40,801 bases of DNA from an uncultured Alphaproteobacteria bacterium. Lineage in GTDB: Bacteria > Pseudomonadota > Alphaproteobacteria > Rs-D84. Every line of letters starts with the position of its first letter. Position 1 is the stretch's first letter. Below the pieces are notes generated by a model. It saw nothing but the letters and a program-made list of their open reading frames with translations, made no database searches and was not told where the DNA came from. The position numbers were made by a program, and so were the translations under genes. Of the stretch, positions 541 through 2,709 are shown in pieces. The stretch is from positions 1 to 40,801 of the forward strand of contig CALXLO010000008.1 in assembly GCA_944389235.1 (NCBI GenBank), read 5' to 3'.

Positions 541-549
541 TGTTATAAT
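541..549 (+). promoter_or_regulatory. extended -10 promoter of the leader RNA
   Basis: TGTTATAAT is a perfect extended -10 element (TG-n-TATAAT, hexamer at 544-549). No good -35 is seen at the usual spacing, as expected for extended -10 promoters. It predicts a transcript start near 556, just ahead of the structured leader. Confidence 0.55.
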
Positions 550-555
550 ATAAAT

Positions 556-727
556 AACCCATGGTAAGTCCCTTGGGCCGGGGAGTCGAAACCCCATCTA
601 ACGTGTTCATCATGGACAAAACACTCCAAACCCGGGTTGGAGAGTGGTGAATATATTGAATAAGCCCGCTATTTCGTTAGATGTAGTTTCGACCTCCAAC
701 CGCTTGATTTTTTTCAGCGGTTTTTTT
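556..727 (+). ncRNA. structured leader RNA ending in an intrinsic terminator (candidate attenuator)
   Basis: About 170 nt fold into a rod. Stem 1 pairs 582-592 with 686-697 (one bulged base), stem 2 pairs 596-603 with 675-682 (8 perfect pairs), stem 3 pairs 606-611 with 646-651, and an apical hairpin pairs 624-629 with 637-642. A terminator follows: stem 698-704/716-722 and a T-run at 721-727. Competing pairings exist. 635-642 can pair with 694-701 (8 perfect pairs), which would open the terminator stem, and 580-583 can pair locally with 592-595, which would open stem 1. The Shine-Dalgarno sequence of the next gene (AGGAGG) follows directly and its ATG is 15 nt after the T-run. This looks like a riboswitch or attenuator, or else a stand-alone RNA of 6S-like size and shape. 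I recognise no known family motif. Confidence 0.6.
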
Positions 728-741
728 CAGGAGGTTTTTAC

Positions 742-2709
742 ATGTTCCGACATTTGGGCGTTCTTTTGTTGATATTTTTGCCAATAACCGCACATGCGGC
801 AACTTGTGACCCGGACCAATATCTGGACGGCGAATTTTGTTATACATGTCCTGCGAATGCAACATGTGACGGCACGAATTTTACATGTAATGCAGGCTGG
901 TTTGCCGACGGCGCAATTTGTACGCAATGCAGCGTTGCAAATTCGTCATGTACCGGTCCTGATGATTACAGTTGTTTGCCTGGTTTCTATGACAAAGACG
1001 GTAAATGCAACGCGTGTCCTGATAACGCGACCTGTGCCGGCGGGCATGAGTATTTTTATTGCAAACCGGGGTATTATAAACAGTCGTATAACAATGTTAC
1101 CCAACAATGCTTGTCATGTGCAAATCATGTATGCGATGGTGAAACACTTATCAGTTGTGGCGCGGGGTATTATTTACATTATACGAAACGGTGTACATCT
1201 TGTACTACCGGTCAATATTGTCCAGCCGGAACGACAACTATTATATGTGAAGAAGGCTATTATAAATCAGCCGCTGGAAGTTGTTTGACTTGCCCAATGG
1301 GATATTATTGCCCACATAATACCACGGCAGCCGATATGTATAAATATTGCGCATCTGGATACTATCGCACAGGCGGCAGTTGCAGCGAATGTCCCGATGG
1401 CGTTGTGTGTCCCGGTGGAATATTGGATGAAATGACATGTCCAGACGGATTGTTCAAACACGATAATGGTCAATGCCTGTCGTACGCACCGGGTGATTGT
1501 GGCATCGCACCAAATTGTAACCCGGGTTGTTGGAATAACGGCGATCAATGTACATCATGTATTGCAGAACATTCAACATGCACAGATGGAAATGATTTTA
1601 CATGTATGGCCGGATATTATAAAAACGGTCAATCGTGTGTGGCATGTCCCCAAAACTCAAACTGTCCTGTGGGCAGCACGCAAATTTCATGTATGGATGG
1701 ATATTATTTGGATGCCGGTCAATGCACAATGTGCGAATCCTATGGATATTATTGTACAGGCAATATTCGCTATGAATGTCCGCCTGTAATCGTGGGCGAA
1801 ACATTAAAATTACCGCCCGAAACTACATTAATAACACATGGTAAAAATTATACACTTCCGTCATCTGCGGCATGGGCCGACACACAGTGCATAATTCTGA
1901 ATACACATTTGTCTGCACCAGATGGCGAGTATATGATAAAAGAGTCAAATAACTATGATGGTGCAATGTACAGCATAGATGATTCTTTGATTAAATATTG
2001 GGTGTCTGCGGCAACTGGGCGCTATTTAAGTAACAGGGATATTTCTCCATCTAGTAACGAATTTTACAGAAACAACAATCCTTGTACCAACGGGGCGGAA
2101 AATTCATATTATACCGGTCCTGGTTCGCCCGATGGCAATGATTGCCCATGGGTGTGTAATGATGGTTTCTATCGCGATGGCAATGAATGTTTGACTTGTC
2201 CGCCTGGGATGAATTGCGTCGGTGGCAGCTTGGTTTGTCCAATTGGTATGTATGCTGATAAAAATCAGTGCTTGGCATGTCCATCTGGATATACAGACGC
2301 GCAAACCAATGGTGCACAATCAATTGATATGTGTCAAAAACGGTGCGATGGCGGGACTTATGTCGCCACCCCAAAATCAAATACATGTACAAATGTTGGC
2401 GCAGGATATTGGATTGGTGAAAATTATACAAACTATGGTGCAACAGGTACGCCTAATGCATGCGACGACGGAATGACTACATCAGGCTATGGCGCGGGCG
2501 CAGACGAATCCGCTGATTGTGGTCGAATTTTACATGTTGGCGACAAAATCATATATTTGCGCAGCGCGCGTCGCACAACCCCGTCATTGATGGTTAAGTA
2601 TGCAGATAAATTATTTTACGGCAATATGTCGCCAAACGCGCCCGGCGATGTAAAAATAAAAATTGGAAACACAATATATTCATTATATGACGATTCCATG
2701 ATTGAATAA
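742..2709 (+). CDS. secreted Cys-rich repeat protein (surface or adhesin-like)
   Basis: This 655-residue protein has a Sec signal peptide (residues 1-19, ending AHA). About 60 cysteines lie mostly in tandem units of the form C-x2-C-P-x4-C-...-C-x2-G-(Y/F)-Y spread over residues 20-350 and 440-590, with a Cys-poor insert of about 85 residues between. The spacing recalls the ephrin-receptor-like/GCC2-GCC3 and TNFR/EGF-like disulfide modules of exported proteins. The last 50 residues are Cys-free (RRTTPSLMVKYADKLFYGN) and may be a separate anchoring or sorting domain. There is no membrane anchor or autotransporter barrel. The start has an excellent SD (AGGAGG) directly after the leader terminator, so expression is probably set by attenuation. 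The role is unknown; adhesion or interaction with host cells is inference. Confidence 0.8.
   Translation: MFRHLGVLLLIFLPITAHAATCDPDQYLDGEFCYTCPANATCDGTNFTCNAGWFADGAICTQCSVANSSCTGPDDYSCLPGFYDKDGKCNACPDNATCAGGHEYFYCKPGYYKQSYNNVTQQCLSCANHVCDGETLISCGAGYYLHYTKRCTSCTTGQYCPAGTTTIICEEGYYKSAAGSCLTCPMGYYCPHNTTAADMYKYCASGYYRTGGSCSECPDGVVCPGGILDEMTCPDGLFKHDNGQCLSYAPGDCGIAPNCNPGCWNNGDQCTSCIAEHSTCTDGNDFTCMAGYYKNGQSCVACPQNSNCPVGSTQISCMDGYYLDAGQCTMCESYGYYCTGNIRYECPPVIVGETLKLPPETTLITHGKNYTLPSSAAWADTQCIILNTHLSAPDGEYMIKESNNYDGAMYSIDDSLIKYWVSAATGRYLSNRDISPSSNEFYRNNNPCTNGAENSYYTGPGSPDGNDCPWVCNDGFYRDGNECLTCPPGMNCVGGSLVCPIGMYADKNQCLACPSGYTDAQTNGAQSIDMCQKRCDGGTYVATPKSNTCTNVGAGYWIGENYTNYGATGTPNACDDGMTTSGYGAGADESADCGRILHVGDKIIYLRSARRTTPSLMVKYADKLFYGNMSPNAPGDVKIKIGNTIYSLYDDSMIE

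Follow-up and report, generated by a model that had tools for sequence, protein, structure and literature searches.

The locus raises the question of what kind of RNA precedes the gene at 742..2709 of the window (the whole 40,801-nucleotide stretch analyzed here, on contig C8 of the 0.82 Mb genome G000). The gene encodes a 655-aa Cys-rich protein with a signal-peptide-like N terminus, and its orthologues lie behind the same leader in genomes G028 and G017. The original prediction was a transcription-attenuating riboswitch or protein-responsive leader that matched no family, with a stand-alone regulatory RNA as the alternative.

Architecture and covariation of the leader

All elements of the leader are on the forward strand and, between 544 and 744, follow in the order -10 box, P0, two-part stem, C:C', terminator, Shine-Dalgarno (SD) sequence and ATG. 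The promoter -10 box TATAAT, read from the sequence, is at 544..549. The minimum free energy (MFE) fold begins with P0 (558..577; 558-564/571-577, one T-T mismatch), the first hairpin of a domain that resembles c4-a1b1. A GGG(G)-A-CCC hairpin (580..595) holds strand A (a1; GTCGAAAC, 585..592) in its loop, and is followed by strand B (b1; ATCTAACG, 596..603) and by P2 (604..618; 604-608/614-618), a hairpin seen in the fold whose sequence and length vary among copies. The 5' strand of P3, anti-C (624..629), pairs with 637-642, which lies within strand C (GGTTGGAG, 635..642). C is the 5' strand and C' (CTCCAACC, 694..701) the 3' strand of a c4-like P1 stem of 8/8 Watson-Crick pairs. Between them lie P4 (644..669), with an internal loop GAATA...GAATAA conserved in the alignment of copies, P5 (669..686; CTAT 669-672 with GTAG 683-686), with strand B' (b'; CGTTAGAT, 675..682) in its loop, and strand A' (a'; GTTTCGAC, 686..693). 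A pairs with A' and B with B'. C' overlaps an intrinsic terminator (698..727) recognized by its sequence, its covarying arms (AACCGCT 698-704, AGCGGTT 716-722) and its run of seven T. The SD sequence AGGAGG (729..734) and the ATG start codon (742-744) follow. The MFE fold extends A through GGGG 580-583 to CTCC 694-697, so that the two-part stem with this extension equals the stem 582-603/675-697 of the original prediction, all of whose elements were recovered in a base-for-base sequence check. The MFE of the window copy is -64.3, compared with -42.7 +/- 4.4 for shuffled sequences (z -4.9; 0/200 shuffles reach it); much stronger evidence comes from the comparison of copies.

A DNA search returned 7 matches in the same genome and matches in 49/99 sampled relatives. 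A covariance model, R1, was built from an alignment of 24 copies; it matches the window at E 4e-29, the window copy being one of the 24 model sequences, and detects 16 copies in the same genome at E<1e-4. Within the genus (Ca. Enterousia, order Rs-D84), 145/156 genomes have R1 matches, as do 14 of the 18 genera sampled in the order and six genomes outside the order and inside the class, other families included. At least 27 copies were scored in some genomes, and under stricter R1 filters two fairly complete genomes of the same genus, G040 and G129, have no leader match. The named records that carry the leader are MAGs of Alphaproteobacteria, among them Candidatus Enterousia and 'Rickettsiales' from termite gut. 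Enterousia is a member of order Rs-D84; its genomes are reduced, and it is presumed to live in dependence on partners (PMC12306168). Three IMG/VR contigs filed as viral (L232-L234) carry the leader, two of them with identical scores over the element, and are probably bacterial or prophage sequence. A phage origin of the present-day copies was rejected, as the motif is on only three viral contigs.

It had been asked beforehand whether 582-603/675-697 and 635-642/694-701 covary in homologues; both stems do. The copies' own strands were compared with strands from other copies in an alignment-free test (n=192) that counts related copies as independent, which makes its P values rough. The AUC of own against foreign strands was 0.925 for A:A' (P = 2e-72), 0.914 for B:B' (P = 2e-68), 0.861 for the terminator arms, 0.767 for C:C', 0.742 for P5, 0.677 for the GGG:CCC of the a1 hairpin (P = 2e-13) and 0.614 for P3, and all seven tested helices gave P of about 1e-6 or smaller. 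A matrix of the a/b strands of the 16 copies in the same genome, some of them mis-bounded or degenerate matches, gave 32 on the diagonal against 21 off it, and the own pairing was the row maximum in 10/16.

Pair counts agree with this test. In an alignment of 121 sequences the modelled helices have 508 two-sided changes against 120 in shuffles (0/500), and P3 is 95% paired with more G-U. Two-sided changes affect 7/7 modelled pairs of A:A', which is 98.1% paired. C:C' and P5, neither of which is in the model, have 95.5% standard pairs, two-sided changes in 10/13 pairs (121 sequences), and 127 two-sided cells against 37 in shuffles (0/500); their score collapses when the partners are slid by 1-3 columns. 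All four pairs of P5 have two-sided changes (CTAT/ATAG and CAAT/ATTG). Across the order, C and C' are replaced together in divergent copies (GGCAGGAGG/CCTCCTGCC, GGCGGGAGG/CCTCCCGCC, GGACTGGGAG/CTCCCAGTCC, CGTCAGGAAG/CTTCCTGACG). SD/anti-SD sensing through the GGAGG in C was discarded because the GGAGG core changes along with C' in these copies, and a leader peptide (MNILNKP, from GTGAATATATTGAATAAGCC) because its start codon and frame are not kept (GCGAAT and TATAGAAT variants). The many copies per genome, the tandem arrays and the decayed copies at C2:28637 and C6:12263 of the same genome are what would be expected of a selfish or decaying promoter-RNA-terminator cassette that spreads without regulatory function, but every helix shows compensatory changes between genera and between families, and this, with the conserved SD/ORF spacing, makes that explanation barely credible.

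The terminator and C:C' both use AACC 698-701. Since C overlaps P3 and C' overlaps the terminator, C:C' excludes both. C:C' is more stable than P3 in 170/192 copies (medians -16.5 and -12.6 kcal/mol). The leader thus has a terminator before the gene and an alternative pairing that disrupts it. Transcription-attenuating riboswitches and T-box leaders carry mutually exclusive antiterminators and terminators before the SD sequence, and the leader is like them in this respect. The covarying exclusive helices, with the terminator ahead of SD and ORF, bear out the original prediction of a transcription-attenuating cis leader with mutually exclusive pairings, and support its classification as a transcription attenuator with predicted termination. 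It differs from riboswitches and T-boxes in that the fold is decided by a/b pairs specific to each copy, with no evidence of an aptamer or a ligand.

Relationship to c4 and sRNA-Xcc1

Rfam searches of the window copy, at gathering thresholds and at E<=10, gave no relevant match and none to the c4 clan. In other members of the order, RF02221 (sRNA-Xcc1) was found at the leader position with 40.2 bits (L238), 39.1 bits (L278 and L243) and 35.2 bits (L253); in G165, of the same genus, it coincides with an R1 match (39.7 bits, E 6.3e-6). The best of these leader scores, 40.2 bits, does not reach the RF02221 gathering cut-off of 53 bits. When L169, a 231-nt sister leader from Enterousia, was compared with 4227 Rfam families, the best two were sRNA-Xcc1 on its 3' half (E 0.0011) and c4-a1b1 (RF03163, 'a1, b1 targets of C4 antisense RNA') on its 5' half (E 0.0019; 21.4 bits, below the cut-off of 46.7). 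The order and register in L169 are right: P0 is the first RF03163 hairpin and GGG-A-CCC the second, with a1 in its loop. RF01695 and RF02944 did not match the leaders in Rfam scans of the window and sister leaders. Because the Rfam scores are below the gathering cut-offs, the kinship with c4 rests on the position, order and anatomy of the sister copies.

The 87-nt RF02221 model aligns one-to-one with C, P4, P5, A' and C' of the leader in both fold and order, and the P4 internal loop has the same position as the AAUA/GGAAUAA loop of RF02221. In the reverse test, R1 gave only weak matches on RF02221 loci, two of them correctly placed (21.4 and 17.5 bits). As in c4, a closing stem encloses two stem-loops, b' lying in the loop of the second and a' between that one and the 3' strand, all of which covary; a1 and b1 lie upstream and are complementary to a' and b' (own against foreign P = 3e-76, n=175, kinship ignored). 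Phage P1/P7 c4 and c4-a1b1 (RF01695, RF02944, RF03163) share with the leader the order a1, b1, C, P2-like hairpin, b' hairpin, a' and C', the variable and specificity-giving a' and b', and the GG at the 5' end of the closing stem. Phage P1 itself has the a1/b1-a2/b2 arrangement. The leader, in contrast to phage P1/P7 c4, is without a2/b2, has a terminator as its putative read-out, and lies outside a phage immunity operon. A test for a2/b2 flanking the downstream ribosome-binding site (RBS) in Enterousia-type leaders gave 15.1 for own and 14.7 for foreign strands (P = 0.2). As neither a2/b2 nor a score at the gathering level was found when tested, the leader is not filed as c4 antisense RNA or sRNA-Xcc1. 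In c4, the closing stem has at its 5' end a GGW where RNase P cuts, and a' and b' act on the target RBS (PMC5320573). C in the window begins with GGT, which fits the motif reported for the RNase P site of c4, and in 179/192 copies the first four bases of C include GG. The C4-derived Group 1 sRNAs of Acinetobacter baumannii also have many copies per genome and a variable a', but are processed trans-acting sRNA candidates (PMC5320573), whereas the leaders are gene leaders with a built-in terminator.

RF02221 loci in other Proteobacteria have the order GGGG-a1-CCCC, b1, C-P4-P5(b')-a'-C', and then a2 and b2 around the SD sequence of the gene, as in L318 (CCGAAAAC...CCAAACAG / CTGTTTG...GGTTTTCGG / CCGAAAAGGAGCAAACAGCCATG); the complementarity is significant for a1/b1 upstream (P = 2e-7) and for a2/b2 at the RBS (P = 1e-6). 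These loci suggest that the 87 nt filed as the sRNA sRNA-Xcc1 make up the 3' half of a longer switch that acts in cis and also contains a1/b1 and a2/b2. The genes at these loci include Bro-N, KilA-N, P22 antirepressor, Rha and SymE proteins, and in Xanthomonas integrons sRNA-Xcc1 lies before symE (PMC12444791). The leader and sRNA-Xcc1 have in common the C:C' closing stem, the P4 AAUA/GAAUAA loop, P5 with b', the a' linker, a1/b1 upstream, and the position before a gene. They differ in that, at sRNA-Xcc1 loci, a2/b2 flank the RBS and a T-run precedes C (25/30 loci) but as a rule does not follow C' (1/30), whereas Enterousia-type leaders are without a2/b2 and have a P3 hairpin and a terminator overlapping C', with a T-run after the terminator stem in 188/192. 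The targets also differ: phage antirepressors and SymE for sRNA-Xcc1, mainly exported-protein or HTH genes for Enterousia-type leaders. In the latter, an intrinsic terminator that makes use of C' seems to have taken the place of the RBS target.

Further features were seen at the RF02221 loci L300-L329. The run of at least four T, found between b1 and C in 25/30, is 20-80 nt upstream of the RF02221 match and often behind a G+C-rich terminator-like hairpin whose loop resembles the anti-C sequence. In L309 a c4-2 RNA (RF02944, 2890-2958; 34.8 bits, below cut-off) is about 1.4 kb from an sRNA-Xcc1 copy that adjoins a P22-type antirepressor gene.

The riboswitch or protein-responsive leader of no known family gives way here to the anatomy of the phage c4 system, and nothing points to a metabolite. 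From its sequence, the leader is best read as a c4-type module converted to an attenuator. An attenuator of the riboswitch kind would have a ligand or protein bound at the P4 internal loop and/or the P0 loop decide between P3 plus terminator and C:C'. These loops (GAATATATTGAATAA in P4, GNRTT in P0) are indeed the most conserved single-stranded parts across the order, and one leader is common to a large regulon. The P4 internal loop, however, needs no new ligand, since it also belongs to sRNA-Xcc1; the regulated genes have no common pathway; and copy-specific A and B are not called for by a common ligand. We regard such a binder as quite improbable.

Genes and neighboring copies

Of 149 copies with enough downstream sequence, 107 are directly before an SD-preceded ORF (at least 45 aa, 5-60 nt from the match end), a situation met at 6% of random positions; the median distance is 27 nt. 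Among the other 42 copies, 23 have another same-strand copy within 400 nt. The result runs against an RNA that is mostly without a downstream gene, a test set beforehand. In 184/198 copies, the 60 nt preceding the GGG contain a match of at least 5/6 to TATAAT (median position -34), compared with 111/198 after shuffling. Since the space between terminator and SD is too short for a second promoter, the gene would depend on readthrough.

Signal-peptide-like N termini, scored with a crude, home-made rule, are present in 36/49 downstream genes of at least 120 aa and in 120/618 background ORFs; the Cys content of the proteins from these genes is 3.9%, compared with 1.7% in background ORFs. The window gene, a Cys-rich protein, is of the type enriched behind leaders. 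Pfam matches of downstream proteins are to Ephrin_rec_like/TNFR-like Cys-rich, OMP_b-brl, Gly_rich_2, HTH_31/HTH_3, GmrSD, glycosyltransferase 2, ABC transporter and YgjV; they reveal no shared pathway and no phage antirepressor operon. Small HTH proteins are common, and the small ORFs have only weak generic HTH matches in PHROGs and Pfam. The succession of RNA, terminator, SD and small ORF recalls a type III toxin-antitoxin locus, with an RNA antitoxin before a small toxin gene, the more so as some copies precede 50-90 aa HTH-like ORFs and relatives precede SymE. The downstream genes are nevertheless for the most part unrelated, encoding secreted Cys-rich proteins, beta-barrel OMPs, GmrSD, a glycosyltransferase and an ABC transporter, and the RNA does not have the form of a short tandem repeat; we discarded this very improbable reading because of gene content.

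Some cassettes deserve separate description. In the same genome as the window, C5:468, C9:51 and C5:26806 (L067, L098, L101) encode near-identical short proteins (MAKSKTKAELFDELLNAYC...), one of them cut by a contig end, behind leaders with clearly different a/b strands; as judged from their sequences, these cassettes are cases of fast divergence of the address part only. Four stages of decay are represented by cassettes of a leader and a small HTH ORF (MNVILVDARRYGHV...) at C18:563, C9:35160, C2:28637 and C6:12263, the last two being among the decayed leader copies. In G273, of another order, the same leader type is ahead of pilin-like genes (MIKKKVNTELGRSMVEMLGTLAIMG...; L291, L292, L293).

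Tandem arrays of 2-6 units occur in L204 (3939-5042), L216 (101-1397), L213 (1064-1705), L159 and L222. Where measured, the units are about 175-285 nt apart, each with promoter and terminator and mostly with no ORF between; in the L204 array the combination of A and B pieces varies from unit to unit, as though they had been shuffled. Truncated copies in L146 (2785-3086), L194 (6182-6344), L195 (370-532) and L208 (3657-3787) are without P0, a1, b1 and the P3 5' strand and begin at C directly behind a TATAAT-like box. In L195, the b1 of the full upstream copy fits the b' of the truncated copy better than its own b'. Integron attC sites, which have inverted repeats, were rejected because the copies are scattered with promoter and terminator and do not form a cassette array.

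These units bear on the stand-alone RNA of the original prediction, which fits the upstream tandem units, each of which has a promoter and a terminator but no gene, but not the 107 copies before an SD-preceded ORF. They bear also on a trans-acting antisense sRNA, as in phage c4, sRNA-Xcc1 and the c4-derived group of A. baumannii, in which the terminated leader or an RNase P product would use a' and b' on other mRNAs and the leader's own gene would be expressed by leakage. In its favor, the relatives have been described as sRNAs, 23/154 copies have a further copy at most 400 nt downstream and lack a gene of their own, and the RNA released from such gene-less units, each with promoter and terminator, may have a role of its own. 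Against this stand the same count of copies before genes, a' and b' strands that fit their own a1 and b1 far better than those of other copies, the lack of an a2/b2 target near the RBS, and a terminator built to conflict with C:C'. We therefore consider a trans-acting sRNA unlikely.

A proposed switch and its significance

The leader is probably a c4-type module, its 5' half c4-a1b1-like and its 3' half sRNA-Xcc1/c4-like, that acts in cis as a default-off transcription attenuator. P0, the a1 hairpin, b1 and P2 would be transcribed first, and P3 would next sequester C by pairing it with anti-C. On emerging, b' and a' would bind b1 and a1. While P3 retained C, C' would be available to the terminator, transcription would stop and an RNA of about 165 nt would be released. 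If a1 and b1 were kept off a' and b', or C were freed from P3, the RNA would adopt the c4 fold, in which C:C' closes a junction with P4 and P5 and withdraws AACC from the terminator, and polymerase would read on into the SD and gene. Termination in vivo, the default state and RNase P cleavage at C are steps that we infer.

In pseudoknot-free folding of hand-set structures, the terminator state has -41.8 kcal/mol and the nested c4 fold -22.1 kcal/mol. As energy alone favors the terminator state, the switch would need help: the ON state must be assisted or be a pseudoknot. Candidate triggers are a mature c4-like RNA, a released 5' half, or a neighboring tandem copy. Because the a/b codes are copy-specific, a cognate RNA would be the most economical trigger, and a competing RNA of this kind is most likely the signal. 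The a/b strands differ between copies and match within a copy, so that each leader would be a largely private switch. The truncated copies that start at C behind their own promoter (L146, L194, L195, L208) look like ready-made c4-like RNAs. A more far-reaching scheme, possible but doubtful, is addressing by RNA only: a phage-immunity RNA would have been duplicated into dozens of leaders, each with a private a/b code, and cognate c4-like RNAs would switch single exported-protein genes in trans, as phage c4 does with antirepressors. That the cognate RNAs would come from tandem units, truncated copies or terminated leaders is likewise possible but doubtful.

The leader has no description in Rfam at gathering scores or in the literature searched. 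Yet almost all genomes of a gut genus rich in species, which measure about 1 Mb or less, contain it, some of them in at least 27 copies, and the organisms that bear it are thought to live off partner cells (PMC12306168). It links the c4/sRNA-Xcc1 phage-immunity RNA to the control of bacterial exported proteins, a link not found elsewhere in the literature searched. As the a/b pairs are copy-specific and the rest is fixed, the leaders would form a natural set of near-orthogonal RNA attenuators, which could be tested in E. coli.
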